Origin: Quercus robur
Taxonomy: Eukaryota; Streptophyta; Magnoliopsida; Fagales; Fagaceae
Direction of reading: 5' to 3'
DNA: 64,000 nucleotides
Assembly (NCBI RefSeq): GCF_932294415.1
Contig: NC_065537.1
Location: 63,688,290-63,752,289, forward strand
In this document: piece after piece, positions 2,355 through 59,689 of the stretch
How the letters are laid out: each line of letters begins with the position of its first letter
How positions within the stretch are numbered: the stretch's first letter is position 1
The notes under the pieces: generated by a model
Told to the model about the DNA's origin: nothing
Seen by the model: the letters and a program-made list of their open reading frames with translations, nothing else
Databases searched by the model: none
Made by a program: the position numbers and the translations under genes

Positions 2355-2969
2355 TTAGTACTCTAGAACTCCCTTACCCTTGTCTTTATGAATGGTTGGA
2401 TCAACAGGTTCAGATTGAGGGTCCTCACTGGAGCTACTAGATTTTTTGGGACTTACCTCATGTTCATTAGAGAACAAGGTCATGCATTGTCTTATTGTTT
2501 CCTGAAACTCTACCTCATCATGTTTGTAAAGAAGATGGAAGCCACACTTTTTCACCAAGCCAGGGCAATCTGTCGCAACTGAAGCCTCAATCCGGCTGCA
2601 TTGATTCACCAAGTCTTTAAATGAACAACGTGGAATATAAGACAGCCAGATAAATCCACCTTGCTGTAAGAACTTGAGATCTTTTTCAGTTATGTAATGG
2701 ACATGGAGAGGTTCCACACATTCAATATTTGTTTCCAAATGACAAATAAGATTGTAAGAAGTTTCTGAATTCTGAATGTCAAGTATGGCAGTTGGGTTTG
2801 CTTCAACTGCAACAGAAGCACATAGAACAAGTCCCATCCAAGTACTGTCATTGTACACATTTGGAGGTAAGGGGATTGTCACCAGGGGTTCATCACTCCA
2901 GTGGCTAAACCACTCCGGAATTTCACATAGAGGAAAACAAGAATTATAGACACGGCATTGATCAAAGTC
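2355..2969 (-). CDS. TNL-A exon 11: C-JID unit 6 and C-terminus
   Basis: 204 residues ending at TAA 2355-2357. The C-JID core (IPEWFSHWSDEP, NVYNDSTWMGLVLCAS, KCGFHLLYKHDEVEF) repeats unit 5. A Ser-rich polar tail (VSPKKSSSSSEDPQSEPVD) and GKGVLEY end the protein. This is the only unit with a terminal stop, so it is the natural last exon. Confidence 0.88.
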   Translation of the reverse strand, partial: DFDQCRVYNSCFPLCEIPEWFSHWSDEPLVTIPLPPNVYNDSTWMGLVLCASVAVEANPTAILDIQNSETSYNLICHLETNIECVEPLHVHYITEKDLKFLQQGGFIWLSYIPRCSFKDLVNQCSRIEASVATDCPGLVKKCGFHLLYKHDEVEFQETIRQCMTLFSNEHEVSPKKSSSSSEDPQSEPVDPTIHKDKGKGVLEY

Positions 2970-5900
2970 CTGTAAATTAGCAGAAAATATAGTGTCTAAT
3001 GAGTGAGAATAGGAGAAAGAAAAGGAGATGGAATAGTACATTTGTAACAAAGCAAATACAAATAGTGTATGAATTACCAGTAGGTCACTTTTGCCAAGTT
3101 GAGTCTTAGTTTCATTAGTTTCCAATTGATCAATAAGTCTTGGAACTAACTCGTGCTCATTAGAGAACAAGACCATGCATTGTCTTATTGTTTCCTTAAA
3201 TTCTACTTCATCATGATTGTAAAGAAGATGAAATCCACACTTCTGCACCAAGCCAGGAAAATCAATTGCAACTGTAGCCTCAATCCGGCTGCATTGATTC
3301 ACCGAGTCTTGAAATGTAGCACGTGGAATATAGGACAGCCAAATAAATCCACCTTGCTGTAACAACTTGAGATCTTCTTCAGTTATGTGATGGACATGGA
3401 GAGGTTCCACACATTCAATATTGGATTCCAAATGACAAATGAGGTTGTAAGAAGTTTCTGAATTCTGAATGTCAAGGATGGCAGTTGGATTTGCTTCAAC
3501 TGCAATAGAAGCACATAAAACAAATCCCATCCAAGTATTGTCATTGAACACATTCGGAGGTAAAGGGATTGTCACTGGAGGCTCATCACTCTGGTGGCTA
3601 AACCACTCCGGAATTTCACATAAAGGAAAACAAGAATTATAGACACGGCATTGATCAAAGTCCTGTAAATGAACATAAATAATTGTGTCTAATGAGTGAA
3701 AGTGAGAGAAAAAGGGTGATGGAATAGTATGTTTGTAGCAAAGCAAATATTATTAGTTTATGAATTACCAGCAAGTCACTTTTGCCAAGTTTAGTCTTAG
3801 TTTCATCGGTCTTTGATTGATCAATAAATCTTGGAACTAATTGAACTTCAACGTCGCTAGTGGAAAAGATTTTCTTTTCATCAACACCACTTTGTTCATT
3901 TCTTTTCTTTTCATAATCCTCTGTATGTTTACGAACAATCTCCCGCTGCTCTAAAATCAAGTCATTGCAGTGTCTTAGTTCTCGCTCGAACTGTACTTGA
4001 TCATGCTGGTACAAAAGATGTAACGCACATTTCTGAACTATCACACCTGGCCAATCACTTACAAATGAAGCCTCAATGTGGTTGCAGTATTGCAACAAAT
4101 TTTTAAATAACTCAACTGGTACGTAGGATATCCAAATGAATTCACATAGATTAAGTAACCACGTGATTTCTTCTCTACTAGTGTAGCAAGAAATTATCTC
4201 ATCACTCACATTTGCCATACTCGTTTGGCATTGACAATATAGGAAGTGAGGAATTCCGGAAACTAGATAATTCAAGATGCTATGTGGATCCTCATGGAGT
4301 GAAAAAGAAGCATATAGAATGAGTCCCATGAAATTATTATCATGGTACAAATTTGAGGGTAGGTCAATTGTCACTGAACGTCCATGATTCTTATGACTAA
4401 ACCACCCGTAAATTTTACTTGGAGGGAAACAAAAATTATACAAAGTGCACGGATTAAAGTCCTGCAAAATAGAAATACAGCTTGCAATTAGAGACACAGC
4501 ATGTTTTGTACAAACTAGTTCATATTGTAATGTTTGGTTTATTGGTTATGTTAATTAGGAGTCGGTTACGTATGTGGTTTTTGCAAAGGCTAGAAAACTC
4601 TAGAACAGCTGTTAAAAAGAAGCAAAAATATAGAGGTTTAGGGAATTAGAGATGTTATAACGGTCCTTTCCATTTTTACTTTTTATAGTGCTACGCACAT
4701 ATAAAATTTAGAAAACTTTATTTCTAAATTATACTTGGGGCTGTCTACGGGATTCGACAAACCAACCCACCCGAGTGACCCAACCGGAACCAATCCAATC
4801 CAGTGGATTTAGTGGTCAGTGGCTTCAGAATCCAATTCTGATAAATTGAGTCTTTTATTCTCTCCTCCAACACCCGAATAAACTGACCAGACCAAAAACT
4901 CAACCAAACTTTGATGAAGCTAGATCCGGCGAGATCTCACCAAATTTAGCAAGATCTCTCTAAATTTGGTGAGTTTTCCACCGGATTCGGCAAGTTTTGA
5001 TCCATTTAGAGATCTCACTAGATCCAACGAAATCTCACTTGATCCGACAAGATTTTCATTGAATCTTCTCCATTTTTGTTGAAATTGCGATCACCACCGC
5101 CTCTTTCCGTTTCGACCCAAACCAATCCGATTCGTTGAAGTTATCAGTCGATGGTAGGTCCTCCATTTTGCCACCCATTGAAATCGAGTCGAGTCAAAGT
5201 AAAGCACAAACCCGACCCATCACCCATGGACAACCCTAATTGTGCTGCGCATATTCATGTTAAGAGATTTGAGATTCAATTTCCGTCTACACCAAAAACT
5301 AATTGGTGTCTTGATCTGATGGTAAAGAGAGTAGACGCTATATGTTGAAACTTTAAAAAAAATTATATAAGCCTATCATTGTCCTAAAATTTAATAGATA
5401 TCTTTAAGTAATCCCTCTCATTTTTTTTTTTTTTAATACAAGATAGAATTTCTACTTTAGCCAAATCTAAGTGTACATGCGTGTAACTCTTTCTTGAAGA
5501 CTTGAACCCCAGCTCTTACCCCCAACACCCCATGAACATTTATACTTGTGGAGTAACTATCGCACCAAGGATGTGCAGTGATCATTTTATTTTAAATGGA
5601 AATGACAAAGTTTAACCCAGCCTCAATGGAGTTAAATAAGGTTTGTGTTAATGAAAGAAAACTTTTACTACATTTGCACAAGGTACACATATACTATATA
5701 AAGTATGGAAATTTTTACCAATGCGCCAGTTTTGTAAAAGAGTGAGTCCTCATAAGAATACTGGCTAGAAGTTCCACTTGTCTCCCCTTGAGAAACTGGC
5801 AAGTATGGACAGTCAAGGTCCTCATACAAGCTGTCACTGCCACTGAATTCATCACTACCATAAAACGGCAATCTTTCATATACTGCCTTCTTACAAGAGC

Positions 5901-8900
5901 CACGGATGACATATAAATAGTCAACATACGATATTACGCATTGTACCATGGTACATGTAAACTCCTGCAAATTTTGCTTGTATAAAAGATCCACCGCACA
6001 CTTCAGCGGCGACACATCTGGACTACCGCTTAGAAATGAGAATTCAACCCAAGTGCATTGCCTCCAATGGGGTGAAAGGATCACACGTGGCATGAATGAT
6101 ACCCAAATAAATGCACGTTGATGCAATGAAATTAATACGTCATCTTCATCGATTCCATAGTACAATAATGGACTCATACAACCCAAGTTGGTTTTCAAAT
6201 GACAACTGAAGATATGAGCAAATTCGGAATTCAGATTTTTCCAAACCGAAGTAGGATGCTTGTGAAATGAGAAAACAGCACAAAATGCAAATCCCATCCA
6301 ATCAGGATTGTCATACAAATCTGGAGGTAGCCACATTCTCACAGAGGATCTATTAGTGCTCTGATGGCTGAACCACTCTGGGATTTTACTTTGAGGAAAA
6401 CAGTGATTGAAAATACTACGTTTGTTGTAGTGGTCCTGCAAACATATAGGAAATGTTAATAAGCTTGACTAAGTTTCGTGTAATTATGATTTATTTAATC
6501 TACACATTTTTATACACAACTAAAAAAAGCAACTAAAATCGTAACTTAAAATCATGATTCCAATGTCAAAAATCGTGATTTGAAGTCATGATTTTATTTT
6601 TGTTTTTTTAATTGTGTGTAAAAATGTATGAATTAAGGTGTGTACAATAAGCACAATTTAGTACAAAATAAACTGTTTATTATTTTATGATTTAATTTAC
6701 GTTTGTTAGGCCAAAATTATTATATATTGGCAACACGTATTTAAAATGTTTGCAAAAAATAAATTAAAAAAAAAAAAAAGTTCTCATGTTCTCTCTTACA
6801 TGTTACGTATTCTATAATCATCAATTCACCACTAAGTTAATAAACAAAAAAATAAAATAAAATAACAATTATTGAAATGGTATATTTCGATTTTGTTAAC
6901 AAAGTGGTCATGTTGAACCTGTGTGAAAGATTGAAATTAGTATTGTCTTGCACCACACTATATTTAAAGGGAAAATTACAGTTTTTATCCTAAATTACCT
7001 TATTTTACACTTATCTCATGAACTAAGAGAATGCATGATTAGTTCCCTAAACTAAAACTCAAGTAACACTTTATCCCCTCCCATCTATTTCCCAATTAAG
7101 TTGGGTGGAAAACTAAGTCACTCGCAATTCACGTGAAACGTGCTTATGTGGAACCCCTTAAAATGACTGAATTCCCCCCTCATTCACCTAAAACAAATCA
7201 TCTCTCTCATGTCTTCTTCCTCTAGGACAGCCATTCATTTGAAACCTTAGAAATCCAAATCAAGACACAAATTTACTTTCATACCAAATATAAAACCATG
7301 GAACCATACCCGATTCCCACTCCTCAAACCTCAAACAAAATACCCAAATCCTTACAACCAATAGAAAACCCAATCATTAAATCAACCAAGACCTAAACCA
7401 AAAAAAAAAAAAAAAAAAAAAACACCATGAAATAGAAAAGAGAAATGGTATGACTCGCTGTGACTAATAGCCACTAAGGCTTGGGCAAGGGTTGAGAGAG
7501 AGAGAGAGAGAGATTAATCTAATGTAGGTTAAAAGAAATTAAAAAAAAAAGAAATTAAAATTAAAGAGAAATAAAAAGAGATAATAAGTTTCTACAGAAA
7601 AAAATAAACAAATAAAAGAGATAAGTGTGATATGATTTCAAAAGTTTATTTGTTTTAAGTGAATAAGAGGGGGGCATTTTAGTCATTTTCAGGTGGTTTC
7701 ACATAAGCACGTGACTTAGTTTTCAGTCCAACTTCTTTAGGAAATAGACAAGAGGGGGTAAAGCAATATATAGATTTTAGTTTAGGAGGCTCGATAGTGC
7801 ATGATTGTAGTTCAAGAGGTAAGTGTGTGAGGTATAGTTCATGGTAGAAAATTGTAATTTTCCCCTCTTTAAGTTTCCCTTGAGAGAGAGAGAGAGAGAG
7901 ACCTGCAAATATGGTTTAAACCAGGATTCAAGGCTGCTTGACATCTTACTTCCACATTGGCCATTAAAAAATGGTATGCCTAAATAAATAGGTGAGCGAT
8001 CTGAGTTTCTTGAAGTGCCTACTGCATTACTGTGAATTTCCGGTGTACACATCTCTTGTATCTTCTCTTGTATAGCATTACTTGGTAGAAGCTTTGGCAT
8101 ATGCATGGCGTGAGGCCTCCTGCAAGTATCAAAAAACATTTAGAATTTCTTATCTATTACATTCAAGTGTGGTAACAAAATCTTGTGAAGTAAACTTTAA
8201 CCTTTCCGGTGTGAAAGTGCAACAAAAATCTTCTCCATGGTTGCAGCCCTGCAACTTTCCAAGTTGATCTATAAGATTTAGGTAAATAGCTTGATGATAG
8301 ACCTCTGGAGTCCCTAACATATACTCCACAAGTGTTTGCACAAACTCTTCAACATTTTTCTCGTATACAAGACGGATTCCACACATACCAATTTGCACAC
8401 CTGGATTGTTGCTTTCAAATAAAGCCCCAATGTGACTGCACCGATTCATTCCAAAAAGCAGGCGTGGTATGTAAAATACCAAAAGTCGTTGTGATGACTC
8501 ACCAAAAATGTCTCTAGAGAGGGGAAAGGCCGTGTAAGGTGCAAAAGAAACTTCATCACTAGCTGAAAGACTAGAAAAGCGAAGCAGAATTGTTGAATTT
8601 GTTGAATCCTGTTTGTAACTGAAAGCATCTCCTTGCTTCCCAATAGTGTACAAAGCATATACCGTGAACCCCAACCATCTTGAATTATCATGCAAATCTG
8701 GAGGCAACTCCATTTTTATGTATGGCCCAAAATTTTGATAGCTGAACCAGTGTGGTGGTCTTGCAATCTGAGGAAAGATATAATCATACCAGTGGTTTCG
8801 TGCCAAATCTACCTGAAAAAATACATAAACATACGGCATATGAGTGAGACATGAAACAATACAAAAATAAGGAGTTCAGTGATGCATAGGAAGAGACCTG

Positions 8901-11900
8901 ATACAATTTTGAAAGCAGTGACTTGAACTGTGTTTTCAGCCTGGGGTTTGACTGATTTTGGCCATTAGACTGACTGGATTCAACCTCATCAACGTAGTGG
9001 GAATTAGCCATATGATATGTTATGAATTTTTTTTCACGTAGACAGAGGTCATCAGGGCTCCCGAAAGTTTCTTGGCTTATTTTTTCTACAAATTCTGCCA
9101 TATCTGTCTCATATAGAACACGTGCACCACACATTTTAATCTCAATATCCTGGCTGTTGGTTTTGATCAAAGGACTAATGCAACTCCGTTCATCTAAACA
9201 TTCTCTGAACCTCTTGTGCGATATAAATAGCCAAAGCCCAAATGAACCACCATGGAATTTTTCCTTAGGGATATTATAGACTAAGCGGGAATCTTTAAGG
9301 CCACCATCCACGTCCAAACGACAAATAAATTCATGAAAGCGTTTTGAATCCTGACCGGGAGAAACGTCCTTCAGATTCTTGACTTCAAAAATGACACATA
9401 GAGCAGTTCCTTTCCAACTTTTGTTTTCAAACAGATTGGGAGGTAGTTGGATTGGTACAGAATCTACAGATGACTTAGAACTTTGATGGTTGAACCAATC
9501 TGGAAGTTCGGTTTGAGGAACAACACTGTAAAAGCCTTCAATTTGATGAATTTGTTCCTGCAAAATATTTAAAGAAAAAAAGTAAAAATTATGTTCAATG
9601 CATGTTTGTGTGTGCAAGAGAGAGAGAGAGAGAGAGAGACCTCCATGAATCTTTGCCATAATGGTTGGAAGTGTATATCCAGTAAAGAAATCTCAGCAAT
9701 TTTCCCTTCTTCATCGTCAGCCAAGCCAAGGCAATTAATAAAAGTGAATCCTGCATCACCCGAAGTCCAAACAACAACTTGATTTGAATAATTTTCGAGC
9801 GAAGAACATCCTCGTGCTGAAACATATTGCGTACTTAATGGAAGATACGGCAATGATTTAAGCTGGCTACAATGATCCAACAGAATAAGTTTGAGCTCAG
9901 AAAGTTCAGAAATGCTATCAGGCAAGTTTGTAAAATTATTTTTGCTCAAATTCAGAGACTTTAGTGAGGACAAGCAGCTAAGATCATCAGGGAGTTCTCC
10001 ATCCGACAGATTACAGTCACTCAGATCTAGAGATACTAAAGAGCCTAATCCTGAGAACGAGCTAGGCAACAACAGATTGGTGGGCTCTGGAACAGGATTT
10101 CTGGGTTCTGGTTCAGGACCGGTGTATGACAAAGCTTCAATTGGCTGTTGACCCTTACATCCTGATAGAGTGAGAAATTCAAGAGATGTCAAACTGCAAA
10201 TGATGCTCGGAAAACTCAGAAGGTTTTTGCAGTCTTGAAGATTCAATAAATCCAGGCAAGTAAGATGCTTGATTGATGATGGTAGTTCTTCAATGGCTGT
10301 CCCATCCAAATAAAGTTCCAACAAGCTTGTCATGTTGCTCCCAATCTCTGGAAACTTATTGAGTTTTGAACAGCTAGATAGAATTAAAATTTTAAGAGAT
10401 TCCAAGTTGAGCTCATGTGGAAGGTTCTCAAGACATTTACAGTCTTTTAGATTTAATTGAATAAGTTGCTTAAGACCTCCAACAGATGGATGCAACTCAT
10501 GCAATCTTGTACAACCTTGGAAATTCAGCCTCTCAATATTTGAGAATCCAGAGAAGTCTGGAGTCTGGGTTAAGTTTTGAGAGTCACTCAAATCAATGAG
10601 CTTTAACTTGTACAAGTTCTGTGATAAAATAATAAGCAAATACAGAAAATTAAGCAATCAAAAACTTAATCTTAAACAAATAAGTAAAAATTAAAATTAA
10701 AAAAAAAAACTGCAAAAGTGAAAATCTTACCCTGAATTCCCCTGGAAGTTTCTGAATACAACTGCGATGCATAATGAGCTCAACGAGTTTGCGTGGCTTA
10801 AAACTCTTTGGCAATGATTGCAAAGGATAATCATGCCATTCCAACAAACGTAACTCATTAGAAAGAAAACTGAGACAAGGAAGGTGCACCTTACAAAATT
10901 TGAGCAATATCAATTTAGTCATCTTTGAAAATGATTCAGCATTCAATTTATTCGATTCTTCTTCTTCATCTAGAGGTTCTTTTAGCACAATGCCTTTTAT
11001 ATGTTTTGTTCCCTGGTAAGTGGTAACCAAGAACAATAAAATTAGTATACAGCAAGATATAGCACAAATTTGCATAAATTATAAAATTATGTCCATTCTC
11101 TAAATTTATGTCTATATAATAATCCACTTACAGTATTGCTCTTTAATACATCAAGGACATCTGGAAATCCCAACCTACTGCGTTTTTCAGGCTTCTTTGA
11201 TTCCGCACGAATAATTTCCCAACCCACTTCTTGTAATAAATTATGTGTCCACAATTTCCCCCCTACAATAGTAATCAGAGACCTGTCCATGAGAGTGGAT
11301 TTATCAATTTGGAAGTGGTGAACTGATTCTAGTATATCAGCTACACGATTCTCATCCTCTCCAATGAAGAAACATGCTATGTCCAAAAATAGTTCTCTCT
11401 CCGAATCCTCCAATCCATTAACAGCTATTCCAAGTTTCTTAGTAGTTTTTCCAAGGGGTATAGCTTTTAGCTTATTCCAAGCACTTTCCCATTCCTTTTT
11501 TGTTCTTTTACACAAATGGGAACCCCAAACTTCAAGAACCAAAGGAATGCCCTGAGCATAATAGACAAAATTGTTGCACAAATCCAGGAAATTATTTTCA
11601 CAATGAGGTTTGTGGAAGGCTTTCAGACAAAAAAGTTGTAGAGCTTCATCATTATTTAGTCCTTTAGCCATACATTCCCTTCCGATTCCACATATTGCCA
11701 ACATATGTTTGTTTTCAGTTGTTACAATGACTCTACCTCCTGGGTGTAAACAATTCGAATCTGGCTTCCCTACTAAATTTTCTAATTGGCTTTCTTCACT
11801 CACATCATCAACAACAATAAGAACCTTTTTATTACGCAAGTTATTGCTGATCACTTGGATTCCCGTGGACAATTTCCTTGGCCTAATATCTTTCCTACAT

Positions 11901-13442
11901 ATGTCAGAAAGGAGTCGTTCTTGTAAAGTCAATAAACCAGGTTTATCAATAGAATCCTCTCCCAAAATTTTAAGAAAGCTGCTAGCATCAAATTGATCAT
12001 GAATCTTGTCAAAAACAACTTGTGCAAGAGTTGACTTGCCCATTCCACTCATCCCACTTATCCCAATAAACAGAGCATCATGAGTCAACTCCATTTGTAG
12101 ACACGAAATAATTTCCTCAACACGAGATGCTATTCCAACAAGATTGCCTTCAACAACTTTTCGACTTTTATAATTCAGTTTCGAATATATCCAGGGAACA
12201 ATGTTTCGAATAAACTCAGCCTCAGAGGCCCTATAAAAAAAGACATAACAAAAATCTGTGTCAACACAAACTCATTGGAGATGTAGGCGTTGATGTTTTG
12301 CTTGTTCAACTCAGAAAAGAGAGCTCTAAAATTGAACTAAACTAAAAACTCCAGCTCGATTTGCTTGGCAAAATCCTAGGGTATACTAGTGAATTATTAG
12401 CTCCCAATAGAGAAAAATGATTTTTAATATAAACTTGGAGCGGTAAGGACTCTAATATTCAACACGGATATTCTCCTTATTTTATTTTAAATAAAATAGA
12501 AATAAAAACTGCAATTTAATTGAAATTCTGATTTGGCTATTTTTTTTTTTTTTTTGAGAAAAACCACTAGCAATCTGATGACTACCTTATAACACCATGC
12601 CATTTAGTATACAATCTGATGACTACCTTCTTTAAAAATAAAAAATAAAAAGTGAAAATTTTTTCATCTCAAAGCTTTATAAAGTTCAATAATAAGGGAC
12701 AACATGTAAGTACTACTCTTAAGCTTGAAACCTGAAACTTGAAACTTAAATTAGTGACAACCTTTTTTCTTAATCTTGCAATAATATATAAGAGTTGTTT
12801 TTAAAACTACTATAAGTTATGCTTTTATGGAGTTGAAAATGTCAACATTTTAACATCTACATAAAAAATTATTAAGTTTTGCAGTCCGAACGAGCAAAAC
12901 AGATTCTCATTACGAGTAAATCAAAAGCGTTACCCGTCTTTTAAATGATGTCCTGCGAGATTGGCCACAGTTGTTAAAGCAACTCTCCACTTCTGCACCT
13001 TATCTGGATTCTCCTGGAAATTTACTTCATGATTAGCAAAAGCCTCTTCAAAAGTGTCCCTCTGATGCCGCACATGACTAGGATCCACATGGTAGAAAAT
13101 GGGCAAAATTATCAACCCTCCCTCCTTCATGCATTCAACAATCTTTGCAAGTTCTTCTAAGCACCACGAGGAAGATGCATACATTTTAGACAAAATGATG
13201 ACTGCCACCCTTGATTTCTCGATTGCATCCAAGAGTTCCGGCGAAATGGGCTTTCCCTTATCAAGTTCTTTATCATCCTTAAAGGTGATAATCCCTTGAT
13301 CTGTCAAGGCATAATATAAATGGTCGGTAAAAATAATACGGGTGTCTTCACCTCTGAAACTGAGGAAGACATCGTATTCTGGATGAGGTTTAGAACTAGA
13401 GGGAAAGGATGTAGGCACAGTTTGAATGCTGGTGGAAGACAT
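2355..13442 (-). CDS. TNL-A: TIR-NB-ARC-LRR resistance protein with six tandem C-JID (post-LRR) units
   Basis: An intracellular immune receptor is predicted. The TIR makes NAD-derived signals after activation, the NB-ARC is the nucleotide switch, and LRR plus C-JID bind ligand (family knowledge). Exons inferred from GT-AG sites, in order: 12934-13442, 11132-12230, 10731-11012, 9641-10618, 8898-9557, 8202-8812, 7903-8119, 5719-6435, 3769-4461, 3078-3662, 2355-2969. Their lengths sum to 6,966 nt, with compatible phases and no internal stop, giving about 2,321 residues. Usual TNLs have 1,000-1,300 residues and one C-JID. The ATG at 13442 starts MSSTSIQTVP, as in relatives. Closest architecture known to me is Prunus Ma, a TNL with a repeated post-LRR region. 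Introns 7 and 8 carry a MITE and a SINE. Whether all exons join in one mRNA is inferred. Confidence 0.8.
3078..3662 (-). CDS. TNL-A exon 10: C-JID unit 5
   Basis: 195 residues, phase 0 at both ends. It has CFPLCEIPEWFSHQSDEP, PLPPNVFNDNTWMGFVLCAS and GGFIWLSYIPR, ending in KCGFHLLYNHDEVEF. It is nearly identical over its length to exon 11, so the two arose by a recent tandem duplication. The intron that follows (2970-3077) is 108 nt and has no stop in this frame. Confidence 0.88.
3769..4461 (-). CDS. TNL-A exon 9: C-JID unit 4
   Basis: 231 residues, phase 0 at both ends. It carries CFPPSKIYGWFSHKNHG, DLPSNLYHDNNFMGLILYASF and EFIWISYVPVELF, ending in KCALHLLYQHD. A charged helix-like tail (EIVRKHTEDYEKKRNEQ) leads to TKLGKSDLL at the donor. 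A close paralogue is the exon at 61878-62585, which shares most of these motifs. Confidence 0.88.
5415..5568 (-). mobile_element. tRNA-type SINE in intron 8 of TNL-A
   Basis: Read on the minus strand, a GTGCGATAGTTACTCC head is followed by a pol III B-box-like GGTTCAAGTCT (near 5496-5506), a shared body with TAAGAGCTGGGG and CACTTAGATTTGG, and an A-rich tail (poly-T on the plus strand at 5420-5434). A second copy of the same element lies at 45449-45590, which defines the ends approximately. Confidence 0.7.
5719..6435 (-). CDS. TNL-A exon 8: C-JID unit 3
   Basis: 239 residues, phase 0 at both ends. The core reads CFPQSKIPEWFSHQS, MWLPPDLYDNPDWMGFAFC and RAFIWVSFMPR, ending in KCAVDLLYKQN. A Ser/Asp/Tyr-rich acidic tail (GSDEFSGSDSLYEDLD) follows the domain. 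The 3' end of the same exon type reappears at 63948-64000 and its 5' end at 62795-62885, so this unit was also duplicated in TNL-C. Confidence 0.88.
6968..7868. mobile_element. MITE-like inverted-repeat insertion in intron 7 of TNL-A
   Basis: The left end (GGGAAAATTACAG near 6969) is the inverse of the right end (TGTAATTTTCCCC near 7852-7864). Inner arms also match in inverse: ACTAAGTCACTCGC and CACGTGAAACGTGC on the left, GCACGTGACTTAG on the right. The flanks TTTAAAG and CTTTAAG could be a decayed 8-9 bp target duplication, which would suggest a Mutator-like derivative. Poly-A (7398-7421) and (GA)n (7496-7513) lie inside. No coding capacity. Confidence 0.55.
7903..8812 (-). CDS. TNL-A exons 6-7: C-JID unit 2 and linker exon
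   Basis: Exon 6 (8202-8812) encodes PQIARPPHWFSYQNF, LPPDLHDNSRWLGFTVYALY and MCGIRLVYEK, a diverged C-JID. It ends in phase 2 at donor GGAAAG|GTTAAAG. Exon 7 (7903-8119, 217 nt) restores the frame (RRPHAMHMPKLLPSN) and encodes a polar linker ending ESWFKPYLQ, with a GTCTCTCT donor. If exon 7 were skipped, the frame would break. The exon 6 donor is the least certain splice site of the model; the exon itself also has an in-frame stop near 8150 if read through. Confidence 0.72.
8898..9557 (-). CDS. TNL-A exon 5: C-JID unit 1
   Basis: 220 residues, phase 0 at both ends. The C-JID core reads VVPQTELPDWFNHQSS, then IQLPPNLFENKSWKGTALC and FGLWLFISHKRF, ending in KMCGARVLYETD. This domain follows the LRR in many TNLs and, in ROQ1 and RPP1 structures, contacts the recognised effector. 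It is paralogous to TNL-B exon 5 (38059-38595). Confidence 0.9.
9641..11012 (-). CDS. TNL-A exons 3-4: LRR region
   Basis: Exon 3 (10731-11012) begins GTKHIKGIVL and includes LRLLEWHDYPLQSLP, the classical TNL NB-LRR linker and first repeats. Exon 4 (9641-10618) carries leucine-rich repeats such as LKLIDLSDSQNL, LLELYLDGTAIEELP and LKSLNLSKNNFTNLP. Both exons are phase 0 at each end. A Pro/Glu-rich insertion (TGPEPEPRNPVPEP) interrupts the repeats. The donor of exon 4 sits directly against a (CT)n microsatellite. Confidence 0.92.
11132..12230 (-). CDS. TNL-A exon 2: NB-ARC domain
   Basis: About 366 residues. The P-loop GMSGMGKST is intact. Kinase-2 is KKVLIVVDDV, RNBS-B is VIVTTENK, the GLPL motif reads GIPLVLEV, and RNBS-D is FLDIACFF. 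The MHD motif is diverged to THN within LWTHNLLQEVG. Asp-to-Asn at this site also occurs in TNL-B, so it is a lineage feature and not a sequencing error. Exon 1 (phase 2) joins at GCCTCTGAGGCTGAG to give ASEAEFI, the usual linker start. The exon ends at AGCAATACT|GTAAG, phase 0. Confidence 0.93.
12934..13442 (-). CDS. TNL-A exon 1: TIR domain
   Basis: This exon encodes about 169 residues. After a Ser/Thr/Pro-rich leader come YDVFLSFRGEDTR (TIR-1), the GIITFKDDKEL loop, and SSSWCLEELAKI. The last motif contains the glutamate corresponding to the NADase catalytic residue in plant TIRs. ILPIFYHVDPSHVR (TIR-3) follows. The exon ends in HHLKDG with donor GTAACG and phase 2. All hallmark TIR motifs look intact, so it should be catalytically competent. 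An alternative upstream TTG codon in the same frame is not used here. Confidence 0.93.
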
Positions 13443-27879: not shown

Positions 27880-29208
27880 ATGGATAACCAAAAAATTCAA
27901 GTAGCAGTTCTTGCCACAGTTGCATCTATCCTCGTTGTGGGAGCTATAATATTAGAAGATATTAGGTCTAGGAGATTTATAATTAGGCAACCTCGTGTGA
28001 ACCGGGATTATGAAAGAGAAGGTTTTATAAGTGATATTCTTCATCGAGGTGACGCACGTTGCAGTTTTATGATAAGAATGAGACTTGTAGCTTTCTATGA
28101 ATTATGTAGAATTCTTGTTGAGAGAAATTTGGTACGTGAGACTATCTACATGTCTGTTACAGAGCAAGTGTTGATGTTTTTGCATATTATTGGCCATAAT
28201 GTTAGGTTTCGAGTCGTTGCTACCAGGTTCCATAGATCGATTGAGACAGCTTATCGATATTTTAAAATTGTCCTTAAAGCAGTTTTGCAGTTATATAGGC
28301 ATGTTGTTAGATTATCTAACAACTCTACACCCCCAGTGATAAGGAATAGTAGAAGGTTTTATCCTTACTTTAAGGTAAACTTTTCAAATTTTGTTTGTTG
28401 TTTTTTTATTTGTTAGGTGATTTTTGAAATGAACATTACTTAATATTAGTCATCATTAGGATTGTGTGGGAGCAATTGATGGAACTCATGTCCGTGCATT
28501 TGTTCCAATTGAAATCCAAGGAAGGTTTCGTGGTCGAAAGGGGGGGACAACACAAAATGTGTTAGCTTCAGTTTCGTTTGACTTAAGATTCACCTATATG
28601 TTAGCTGGTTGGGAAGGCAGTGCTCATGATTCTCGTATTTTAAATGATGCACTTAGTAGACCAAGGGGACTTAAAATTCCAGAAGGTATTATATAGATAA
28701 CTAGCCTTTATGTTTGGTTTTATGTTGGAATTTTTTTTTAAAAAAAATTGATTCATAATTTGAAGGTAAATATTATCTTGGTGATGCCGGTTATGGAAAT
28801 AGACCTGGAATCTTGTCTCCTTATCGAAGTATTCGATATCATTTGAAAGAGTTTCGTGATCATCCACCTGAAAATGCAAAAGAATTATTCAACCTTCGTC
28901 ATTCTTCGTTGCGAACTACCATTGAGCGAGGGTTTGGAGTTATAAAAAAACGTTTTCATGTCTTGGATGCAGAACCATTTTGGTCTTTTAATACACAAGT
29001 GAATGTAGTTTTAGCATGTGGTGTTATTCACAATCACATCATGGGGGTTGATCCTAATGACCCAATTATGCAAGATGGAACATTTGAGACAGAGTCTAGT
29101 GATCGAGTCCAACCTAGCCGACGCGAAGCTATAGTGGAAAGTAGAGAATGGAATAATAAGAGGGATGAGATATGTCAAGCAATGTGGGCTGACTACATAA
29201 TTAGGTGA
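27880..29208 (+). CDS. PIF/Harbinger transposase (HARBI1-like, DDE_Tnp_4)
   Basis: The protein cuts and joins the element at its ends in the nucleus. Three exons give 387 residues with all phases matching: 27880-28374, 28460-28685, 28766-29208, with GT-AG introns of 85 and 80 nt. The DDE triad is visible: DCVGAIDGTHVRA (first D), GWEGSAHDSRIL (second D) and TTIERGFGVIKKRF (E). IPEGKYYLGDAGYGNRPG is the family block before the last part. The N-terminal segment, with FHRSIETAYRYFKIVLKA, is the usual helix-turn-helix region. The start ATG at 27880 follows an acceptor-like TAG, so a 5' non-coding exon is possible. No frameshift or stop is seen. Confidence 0.9.
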
Positions 29209-34359: not shown

Positions 34360-35034
34360 CTAAGCCTTTGTTGGCCTGATCTCGATCCCTTCAACAACGA
34401 GGCCAGTCTTCTCGTTAAGAGCTTCTATCTCCCTAAGTTTAATCTGCAGTTCGTCATCTTCTCCTCCCGCATTGAAAAATTGACCCAACTCAATCTCTAA
34501 CCATCCATCTTCTCTTTGCTTGGGACGTGAAGTGTGCTGCTGCGGTGGCGGTATAATCTGGTCTTGCTGGTTTGGCTCCATGACAAACAGGCCCAATAGA
34601 ACAGTTTGTTCATAAACTTCACCTCCAGCAGTTCCCACTGAAGCCTTGAAAGGAGGGCCATCAAATCCATGGGCTCCGCTCCTCAACTTGTACACAAGGT
34701 AAGCGGCATAGCGTGTTTTGGGAGACAGAATGGAAATACTCACCTTACCGCAGATGTCAAACCAATACACACGATTAAGTTCCGCTACCTCTGGGAACCT
34801 GTTTGATTTTTACATGTACACAGCTAAGAACTAGATGAAAAAAAAAAAAAAGAAGTCTAAATTTAAAAATAATAAATAAATAAAGGAGTACTAATATATA
34901 ATAGGGACAAACCTGGATTCTTCAGGTAGAGAAATCCATCTCCAATACTCAGGAATGAAACCCCATTCAATGGACAGTTCCCTTGCAGCAAGAAGGTGAC
35001 ATTTCTTACCACTCGATTTGTCCAAGGAAAAGCT
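34360..35034 (-). CDS. PHLOEM PROTEIN 2 (PP2)-domain protein, C-terminal exons
   Basis: Two exons are visible on the minus strand. Exon a (34913-35034) encodes SFSLDKSSGKKCHLLAAREL and WGFIPEYWRWISLPEES. Exon b (34360-34798) encodes RFPEVAELNRVYWFDICGK, SILSPKTRYAAYLVYKL, GWLEIELGQFF and a C-terminal GLVVEGIEIRP. These are the successive blocks of the lectin-like PP2 domain of F-box/PP2-B and related proteins. The intron (34799-34912) is GT-AG and phases agree. The exon a acceptor (TAACAG|AGC, phase 0) requires an upstream exon, but no F-box or TIR exon is recognised in 35035-38028. It is either a 5'-truncated pseudogene or the 3' part of a gene whose first exon is remote. See the finding on possible splicing from TNL-B. 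Confidence 0.8.
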
Positions 35035-57840: not shown

Positions 57841-59433
57841 TTATAACTGTATGCTGTTGGGAGGAGAAGCAGGTCCAAAGGAATTTTGAGGTCTAGTCAC
57901 AAATGGATGATCCAATAGCTGAGTTGCTGTAGGCCGATCATTTGGGTTAACTTGTAGGCATTTGAGGATGAAATCTCGGGCATCTCTTGACAAGGAATCA
58001 GGAACTAGAGGAGGTTTACCCTTGCCAATCGTAAACAATGCTTGCACGCCTTCCAAGGGAGAGTATGGATGTTGACGCGTTAACATCTCCAGCACAGTGC
58101 ATCCAAGGCTCCATATATCAGCTGCAAGCCCGTAGGGACGGTTTTTTAAATTAACAACCTCAGGTGCCATCCAGAATGGAGTCCCTATGCAAGACTTAAT
58201 ATCATTCAATTTGGTTACCTTTGCTAAGGACCCAAAATCTGCAAGTTTTACAGATCCACTTGCATCCACCAATATATTAGAACATTTGATGTCCCTGTGG
58301 ATCACTTTCTTATCATGAAGATACTTCAATCCATTCAAAATCTGTCTTGTGTAAGCAGAGACTTGAGAATCCCTCAAGCGATACTTTTGATAAAGACTGG
58401 CAAGTGACCCTTTTGTTACGAGCTCAAGGAAGATATAAATCCTACTTCCATCCTTTTCCGTGCCAAGATACTGAACTATATTCTCATGTTCAAATTGCTT
58501 TAAAAGTGAAATCTCCTGCTCAAGGTAGGAAACGCTCTGCTTGCCCTGGCTTCCTTGATCCAGGAATGAAACCTCCTTTACAGCAAAAAAGAAGCCATCC
58601 TCAGTGTAGCCCTCATAGACGGTTCCGAAAGAGCCACTTCCAAGAAGCTCACCCTTTTGCCACGAACTAATACTCCGTCTCAATTTCCCTCTCGGCGAAA
58701 AACTATACACTGGAATCACATTCGTTGCGCGAACAATCCCGATATCATTCTCATTCTCGTTCTGCTTCTTATCCTCTTCTTCCGAAAAAACCGAAGAAGA
58801 AGAAGAAGAGCTTGTCGTTTCAGCGTACCCTCCCAAACGCGTAGTGTTAGGTGCTACGACTTCGTCTTCAAGTGGAGCAGAGGACTTCAAAAGCTCCCAA
58901 GTTGAGGTGGAATCAACCGCCACCGACCGCCCCGCCACAGGCGGAGGAGCGAGGACCGGCGGCCGAGCTCCTTTGATTCCTTGACTAGGTCCCGCAGTGA
59001 CAGAACCCACCCTAACCCTAACCTCATCGAGCTTTACCGGTTGAGCCGGTTTGAGCCGCGAAGGAGTAGGAGTAGAAGTAGAAGAAGCGAGATTGTTGCG
59101 GAGGCGAGTGGCGAGGTCGGATTTGGAGCGGTGGGCTTCCCAATCAGCGGTGGGGATAGAGAAGTCGTCGATCCCGGAAAGGCCCAAAGAGCGACAAATG
59201 AAGTCGAATTCGCCATATGTGCCTTCGAATCTGAAGCTCTTTTGGTTGTGAAAAAATGGAGGAAGGTCGAGAGAGCAACTTCGATGGCCGCCTATAGACG
59301 ACAAGTCTTCGTCGCCGGCGGCGATGTCGAACGAGGAAGAAGGACTTAAAGAAGAAGAGGTGGAAGTGGTGGTGGACGAGGCCTCGTATTCGATGTTCTC
59401 TAAGGCGTAGTTTCGCTTTTGCTTTGCGTCCAT
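57841..59433 (-). CDS. MEKK1-type MAP kinase kinase kinase, intronless (probable retrocopy)
   Basis: A Ser/Thr kinase that would phosphorylate MAP kinase kinases in stress and immune signalling. The 530-residue frame (MDAKQKRNYALENIEYEA...) has the Ser-rich MEKK1-type N-terminus with EGTYGEFDFICRSLGLSG, then the kinase domain: GSGSFGTVYEG, FAVKEVS (Lys), HRDIKCSNILVD (catalytic loop), DFG, GTPFWMAPEV, and DIWSLGCTVLEMLT, to PFVTRP. A Ser is inserted just after DFG (DFGSLAK; relatives have DFGLAK). Family members are normally split by several introns; here the kinase domain is one exon, so a retrocopy is likely. An in-frame NB-ARC scrap lies upstream (ATG at 59556). No stop or frameshift. The start at 59433 is chosen by family similarity. 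Confidence 0.82.
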   Translation of the reverse strand: MDAKQKRNYALENIEYEASSTTTSTSSSLSPSSSFDIAAGDEDLSSIGGHRSCSLDLPPFFHNQKSFRFEGTYGEFDFICRSLGLSGIDDFSIPTADWEAHRSKSDLATRLRNNLASSTSTPTPSRLKPAQPVKLDEVRVRVGSVTAGPSQGIKGARPPVLAPPPVAGRSVAVDSTSTWELLKSSAPLEDEVVAPNTTRLGGYAETTSSSSSSSVFSEEEDKKQNENENDIGIVRATNVIPVYSFSPRGKLRRSISSWQKGELLGSGSFGTVYEGYTEDGFFFAVKEVSFLDQGSQGKQSVSYLEQEISLLKQFEHENIVQYLGTEKDGSRIYIFLELVTKGSLASLYQKYRLRDSQVSAYTRQILNGLKYLHDKKVIHRDIKCSNILVDASGSVKLADFGSLAKVTKLNDIKSCIGTPFWMAPEVVNLKNRPYGLAADIWSLGCTVLEMLTRQHPYSPLEGVQALFTIGKGKPPLVPDSLSRDARDFILKCLQVNPNDRPTATQLLDHPFVTRPQNSFGPASPPNSIQL

Positions 59434-59516
59434 TTCAATTGGTTGCCTCTGCTTACCTGTATAATTACTTTCTTCTCCAAATTTACATAATAATTTATTT
59501 GCCGTAATGCATCTTC

Positions 59517-59590
59517 CAGGTTCCTCTGATTCCTCACGGATAATTTCTCGATCCATTTTTTGTAGTAAATCATAAGGACTGTAGTTGAAC
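59517..59590 (-). pseudogene. NB-ARC tail fragment of a TNL, in frame with the MAPKKK
   Basis: Reads LLQKMDREIIREESEEPGRC, the block following the MHD motif of TNLs (compare LLQEVGWEIIRAESKKPEKR in TNL-A). Homology ends abruptly at about 59515 and the MEKK1-type leader begins. The frame is shared with the kinase, and an ATG at 59556 would add 41 residues before the normal kinase start. It is probably the target exon of the retrocopy insertion. Confidence 0.7.
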
Positions 59591-59689
59591 AAAGAAAAAG
59601 AGAAAATAAATCAAACGTCAATAAGTAACATTTAATTGGAAAACAAAGAGATCATCAAGACTCAAGAAGAGTATAAAACAAAATAGAAA

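Follow-up and report, generated by a model that had tools for sequence, protein, structure and literature searches.

Most plant TIR-NB-ARC-LRR disease-resistance receptors (TNLs) have a single C-JID, or post-LRR (PL), unit. In ROQ1 and RPP1, two such TNLs, effector contact involves the LRR and the C-JID together, and the receptors assemble into tetramers, according to the cited parts of a 2022 review, which also lists Ma with five PL units and 12 TNLs of peach with multiple PLs (PMC8813719). Ma, the TNL1 of Prunus cerasifera, is reported to confer full resistance to every root-knot nematode species tested; together with its orthologues RMjaGC2 and Prupe.7G065400 it carries consecutive PL exons after the LRR, and the passages used here describe the role of the PL repeats as yet unknown and the five-PL structure as confined to Prunus and Malus (PMC6141779). 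Excerpts from a further study report predicted TIR-NBS-LRR-PL-PL proteins in poplar, LRR-PL-LRR-PL-LRR-PL proteins in grape and 12 multi-PL TNLs in peach, where the Ma orthologue is the only five-PL protein reported (PMC4851768). A TNL with six or more PL or C-JID units is not reported in the titles and abstract openings listed by searches of open-licence papers on repeated C-JID or PL domains, and C-JID is absent from the main text of a Fagaceae NLR paper (PMC12135283).

The window, the whole 64,000-nucleotide stretch of DNA analysed here (C4:63688290-63752289 in a 786-Mb host genome assembled in 42 contigs), contains a TNL model on the minus strand (13442-2355), assembled from splice sites in the sequence. 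This region is likely to be a single gene that encodes a TIR-NB-ARC-LRR receptor of 2,321 residues, with six C-JIDs at the C terminus, and belongs to a Ma-type multi-copy family. Its features are as follows:

12934-13442, minus strand: exon 1, TIR domain (Pfam TIR, 174 bits), start ATG at 13442
11132-12230, minus strand: exon 2, NB-ARC and winged-helix (Pfam), with THN at the MHD motif and TTEN at RNBS-B
10731-11012, minus strand: exon 3, NB-LRR linker (NLL); LRR_3 match of 19.6 bits, slightly below the cut-off of 20.2
9641-10618, minus strand: exon 4, LRR domain (Pfam); the next intron opens with a CT repeat
8898-9557, minus strand: PL1, class alpha, C-JID 44.6 bits
8202-8812, minus strand: PL2a, class beta, C-JID 33.1 bits
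7903-8119, minus strand: PL2b, the C-terminal part of PL2 (splice model)
7046-7786, no strand assigned: inverted-repeat element inside the PL2-PL3 intron, perhaps a MITE (arms 7046-7121 and 7711-7786, 76% complementary)
5719-6435, minus strand: PL3, class gamma, C-JID 57.3 bits
3769-4461, minus strand: PL4, class delta, C-JID 40.6 bits
3078-3662, minus strand: PL5, class eta, C-JID 57.3 bits
2355-2969, minus strand: PL6, class eta, tandem partner of PL5, with the C-terminal tail and stop, C-JID 50.0 bits

Joined, the 11 exons make up 6,966 nt that encode 2,321 aa and contain one stop, the terminal TAA, and all ten introns are GT-AG. TIR, NB-ARC (97.8 bits), WHD_ROQ1 (46 bits) and LRR families were matched by Pfam, with TIR, NB-ARC and LRR in one reading frame. 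A sequence-only reading of this DNA had proposed a TNL of about 2,321 residues with six C-JID exons and no stop before 2355. The six exons lie where it placed them, with AG acceptors, GT donors and a last exon closing at TAA, and both the open frame and the length were borne out; however, its exon list omitted PL2b (8119-7903), which is required for phase and length. Its statement that all boundaries but one are phase 0 holds from the LRR onward, whereas in the whole gene two junctions (TIR/NBS and PL2a/PL2b) are phase 2 and all others phase 0. When each of the six long PL exons was shuffled base by base, none of 20,000 shuffles was stop-free in frame, compared with 153 of 20,000 for PL2b, an exon of 217 nt. 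We infer that the full array is transcribed as one mRNA.

Two sites may allow alternative products. Inside PL6, a GAG/GTAAGT (exon end 2457) is a possible alternative donor; the PL6 tail beyond it, together with the stop, is kept in a sibling gene on the same contig (C4s). If the PL2a donor is unused, the PL2a frame continues to a stop at 8150, making a short form that ends there possible. The PL2-PL3 intron measures 1,467 nt, and that of the sibling matches most of it. In addition, the PL5-PL6 intron (3077-2970, minus strand, 108 nt) has no in-frame stop, leaving PL5 and PL6 as one 464-codon open frame in which intron retention would add just 36 residues.

The likeness to Prunus Ma drawn in the sequence-only reading was apt, since architecture and the published accounts point to a larger Ma-type receptor. 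In the parts of the Ma study relied on here, as at this locus, consecutive PL exons follow the LRR, PL1 is nearest the outgroup, PL2 is diverged, the later PLs are alike, and decayed TNLs adjoin the gene (PMC6141779). Dinucleotide repeats precede each PL exon of Ma by the same account, and CT repeats stand here at the start of the LRR-PL1 and PL2b-PL3 introns (PMC6141779). However, set beside Ma by its description, this gene has six PLs instead of five (five in the sibling, up to eight elsewhere in the host genome) and a PL2 divided between two exons. The multi-PL TNLs described for peach, poplar and grape likewise have more than one PL, but fewer units than here or LRRs between the PLs. ROQ1 and RPP1 share TIR, NB-ARC, LRR and C-JID with the six-unit gene, but have one C-JID each; their effector contact is reported in the cited parts of the review (PMC8813719), whereas for the six-unit gene such contact is hypothetical.

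A profile search of each exon, which had been suggested as a check, placed all six PL units (PL1-PL6) above the curated cut-off of 24.1 bits for the Pfam C-JID family (PF20160), while PL2b by itself gave no Pfam match. A C-JID is therefore present in every unit as claimed, but the core motif is not uniform, reading WKG in PL1, WLG in PL2 and FMG in PL4. An AlphaFold2 model of PL5, built from an eight-unit alignment (mean pLDDT 70.6), is strand-rich with a C-terminal helix, and its best PDB match was ROQ1 (7jlu; E 8e-5, probability 1.00, TM 0.44 by query length, rmsd 8.5). ROQ1 was the sole match at E<=0.001 among the PDB matches listed, with a TM below 0.5; unrelated beta-rich proteins followed at E 3e-3 and above, and RPP1 was absent among the best 50. 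The predicted fold of PL5, the one unit modelled, thus appears to resemble the C-JID of ROQ1. By sequence, a profile of eight units matched ROQ1 alone among solved structures, weakly (E 0.022), and PL1 searched against solved structures gave no match.

Genome searches with PL2a, PL3 and PL5, each taken to its best ~150 candidates so that counts are lower bounds, yielded at least 132 typed hit places on C2, C3, C4 (7.9-8.2 and 63.27-63.76 Mb), C5 (6.96 and 85.4-85.6 Mb) and C38 (4.77-5.27 Mb), with hits elsewhere, mostly weaker, left out. These form at least 37 clusters (places within 6.5 kb), at least 17 of them, including the six-unit gene, with four or more places, some places being fragments of one unit. 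Ten loci were fetched for their array-like look, plus two further stretches, and units were counted with a profile built in this analysis. C38b and C38d have eight units, C38c, C5a and C5b seven, and C5c six, like the gene in the window; C38f has six, one of them incomplete. At the remaining loci, C38a shows nine stretches from seven units (two of these broken), C38e eight stretches that by the tree belong to two partial arrays side by side, and the sibling C4s six stretches from five units, with PL2 broken by a one-base gap, which indicates that decay occurs in the C4 cluster. C38d was the sole other fetched array scored unit by unit, and all eight of its units exceeded the Pfam cut-off (27.7-50.8 bits).

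Within the fetched stretches, NBS and LRR lie upstream of the array at 9 of 11 loci (the exceptions being C38a and C38e), and a TIR was matched at four of 11 (the six-unit gene, C4s, C5a and C5c). The order LRR-PL1-PL2-PL3-PL4 and onward is shared by fetched loci of contigs C4, C5 and C38. In seven arrays (the six-unit gene, C38b, C38d, C38c, C5a, C5b and C5c), 48 of 49 units start close to a phase-0 acceptor and, apart from last units, also have a phase-0 donor, by a permissive test that accepts any AG or GT in range. PL2b was matched in five of the ten other fetched arrays, once at 97% identity, twice at 46-49% and twice weakly at 39%; its genome-wide matches at E<=0.01 are limited to the six-unit gene and the sibling, so its conservation elsewhere rests on the array-restricted search. 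At G000:C3 63235568-63534682 (minus strand), four further clusters with four C-JID hit places each span 3.1-3.3 kb, several with stops, and in one fetched C3 stretch the NBS end and part of an LRR were also matched upstream of the C-JID places.

The long PL2b-PL3 intron might instead separate two genes, a TNL finishing at PL2 and a PL-only gene at 6435-2355. This division is highly improbable and the PL-only gene was rejected: no TIR, NB-ARC or LRR was matched within 8202-2355 at E<=0.001; PL3, PL4 and PL5 lack, in the stretch from the last stop to the C-JID core, an in-frame Met that could serve as the separate start codon of a second gene; and the order and strand of the array are the same at loci on three contigs.

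A tree of 81 sequences was built from 76 units and five C-JIDs found elsewhere in the genome (a usable stretch was obtained from five of the eight loci tried), four broken stretches of less than ~100 profile positions being excluded. The units fell into seven classes by position and not by gene, namely alpha (PL1 and a copy of it, alpha'), beta (PL2), gamma (PL3), delta (PL4), epsilon, zeta and eta. Each class from alpha to eta was monophyletic, with IQ-TREE support of 100, 100, 100, 100, 100, 99 and 53, respectively, leaving eta, the class of PL5 and PL6, weakly supported; FastTree also recovered all seven (0.94-1.0; eta 0.71). The nearest unit in another gene shared the class in 50 of 50 cases, a figure that partly restates the tree because the classes were named from it, whereas the constant order of classes along genes is evidence independent of that naming. 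Different classes within one gene share a mean identity of 26% and a maximum of 43% (134 pairs). C38b and C38d read alpha-alpha'-beta-gamma-delta-epsilon-zeta-eta, the sibling alpha-beta-gamma-delta-eta, and the six-unit gene alpha-beta-gamma-delta-eta-eta, without epsilon and zeta and with eta doubled. The seven classes probably descend from an ancient array with roughly seven units.

PL6 groups with the last unit of the sibling (support 96) and PL5 falls outside, indicating that the eta doubling may predate the split from the sibling or that gene conversion has occurred. In addition, C4 63289501-63294500 contains part of a delta unit and, after it, two eta units, of which the second is broken; the six-unit gene is therefore not alone in having its last unit doubled. 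LRR identity to the sibling is 98%, and Ks against the sibling is uneven along the gene (LRR 0, PL1 0.009, PL4 0.14), which suggests sequence exchange between the two genes.

Selection along the array is also uneven. Over their first 170 codons, with the differing tails excluded, PL5 and PL6 are 88% identical in amino acids, and 87 of 106 bases are identical in the intron of the tandem pair. The same codons give Ks 0.275, Ka 0.062 and Ka/Ks 0.22 (p = 1.2e-6), with 24 synonymous changes per 104 sites and 24 nonsynonymous changes per 406 sites, and this divergence under purifying selection indicates that the tail of the array has been translated. Across two independent gene pairs (C38b/C38d and C5a/C5b; one pair for alpha' and eta), Ka/Ks was 0.67 for NBS, 0.67 for LRR, 1.13 for alpha, 1.44 for alpha', 0.81 for beta, 1.23 for gamma, 0.35 for delta, 0.60 for epsilon, 0.94 for zeta and 1.36 for eta. 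Values were significantly below 1 for NBS (p = 0.013), LRR (p = 0.023), delta (p = 9.7e-5) and epsilon (p = 0.016). Positive selection at alpha, alpha', gamma and eta was rejected as a reading of their estimates above 1 (p = 0.66, 0.47, 0.49 and 0.42, respectively), and in these two pairs no class had a Ka/Ks significantly above 1.

The main product could be a two-C-JID TNL, in which the PL2a donor is unused and translation stops at 8150, leaving the longer array as a minor isoform; the read-through of PL2a to that stop and the length of the PL2-PL3 intron, with its inverted-repeat element, would suit such a product. It is nevertheless unlikely to be the main one, given the purifying selection on the delta and epsilon classes and on the PL5/PL6 pair, the recurrence of PL2b (partly weak) and the PL2-PL3 order kept at other loci. 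The single TNL with six C-JIDs predicted by the sequence-only reading is well supported by the open model, the splice sites, the order recurring elsewhere and the purifying selection.

The balance of nonsynonymous to synonymous counts differed between positions in three of five comparisons at p<0.05, uncorrected (alpha-delta, p = 0.002; gamma-delta, p = 0.0005; delta-NBS, p = 0.022), and did not differ between alpha and NBS (p = 0.17) or alpha' and NBS (p = 0.11). Loops were more variable than strands in delta (p = 0.0003), epsilon (p = 0.007) and beta (p = 0.03) and with all classes pooled (variable positions, 257/517 in loops vs 218/514 in strands; p = 0.02). Loop-focused diversification was rejected for alpha (p = 0.72), alpha', gamma (p = 0.86), zeta and eta (p = 0.47). 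In the Ma study, according to the excerpts cited, Ka/Ks is far above 1 for PL1 and PL2 and far below it for TIR, NBS and PL5 (PMC6141779). The match to the family in this genome is partial: the PL1 class is high in both, but beta is not high here, and against the low PL5 of Ma stands an eta of 1.36 in one gene pair, yet 0.22 between PL5 and PL6.

A decoy-like array of equal modules, which had been suggested as one function of these repeats, fits poorly with units that are position-specific and whose nonsynonymous to synonymous balance differs between some positions, and it was dropped as the leading reading because the units cluster by position in the tree. Since the later units are of old origin, keep their order and are not equal to one another, they probably act as specialised modules. 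Tentatively, and with slightly less than an even chance in its favour, the source plant may have a family of giant TNLs with five to eight C-JIDs, each position an old specialised module of an ordered multi-module sensing arm. If true, members add, lose or double single modules with order kept, and the breadth of the repertoire evolves by module number plus gene number. The many array genes with five to eight units in fixed order provide natural variants of module gain, loss and doubling, allowing the role of the extra C-JIDs to be tested by comparison and swaps.

From this we infer possible contact roles of the units and a route of receptor activation. PL1 lies directly after the LRR, as the C-JID does in ROQ1 and RPP1, and by analogy the LRR and this first C-JID would form the usual effector-facing surface, which the later C-JIDs may extend as specialised, non-interchangeable modules. 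The classes with the highest Ka/Ks estimates, alpha, gamma and eta, would be the candidates for surfaces that touch effectors or guarded host proteins. For the conserved delta and epsilon, perhaps with beta, other roles would be more likely, such as stabilising the array, binding an invariant partner or holding the receptor inactive. Upon binding, the receptor would form a tetramer and signal through TIR NADase activity.

NB-ARC consensus motifs include the P-loop, TTRD at RNBS-B, GLPL and MHD. The P-loop is kept in the six-unit gene and its TIR keeps WCLEEL, the glutamate of which we take to be the catalytic residue. However, both this gene and the sibling read THN for MHD, TTEN for TTRD and GIPL for GLPL. 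Among ten NB-ARCs, the MHD site is MHN in gene B, a second TNL in the window, LHD in C38b and C38f, and MHD in the other five (C38c, C38d, C5a, C5b and C5c); RNBS-B is TTED in gene B and TSKD or TSRD in the rest. Such departures from consensus in the six-unit gene may indicate a changed or dead switch, or a partner-dependent sensor. Decay of the receptor, with an intact array behind a degenerate NB-ARC switch, would agree with the THN shared with the sibling, the MHN of gene B against a consensus MHD in half of the NB-ARCs and LHD in two, and the decay of two neighbours in the window, B and C. That the receptor is non-functional or decaying is still improbable, as 2,321 codons run without a stop and PL5/PL6 are under purifying selection.

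Gene B (50726-38104, minus strand) contains TIR, NBS, NLL, LRR and a single alpha-class C-JID, its LRR being matched in two parts 6.8 kb apart (46440 and 39626). Downstream of it on the same strand lies a phloem protein 2 (PP2) domain (34360-34809, 133 bits). Locus C, running on the minus strand from 62928-61869 to G000:C4 63759657, is a decayed array with gamma pieces, a delta unit in open frame that is 66% identical to PL4, a TIR fragment at 61387-61084 and more units past the window edge. At 57841-59610 (minus strand), a 589-codon open frame encodes a full protein kinase domain (231.9 bits), presumably MAPKKK-like; its first codons resemble an NB-ARC end by eye, with no Pfam match. Its best relative outside the cluster lies in several pieces at C40:19.724-19.737 Mb, so the frame looks like an intronless retrocopy within the TNL cluster, and another kinase copy, in two pieces, lies at C4:63.41-63.42 Mb. 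Transposase pieces, which we assume to be Harbinger-like, occupy 27880-29208 on the plus strand, with DDE_Tnp_4 (36 bits) above and HTH_Tnp_4 below the cut-off.
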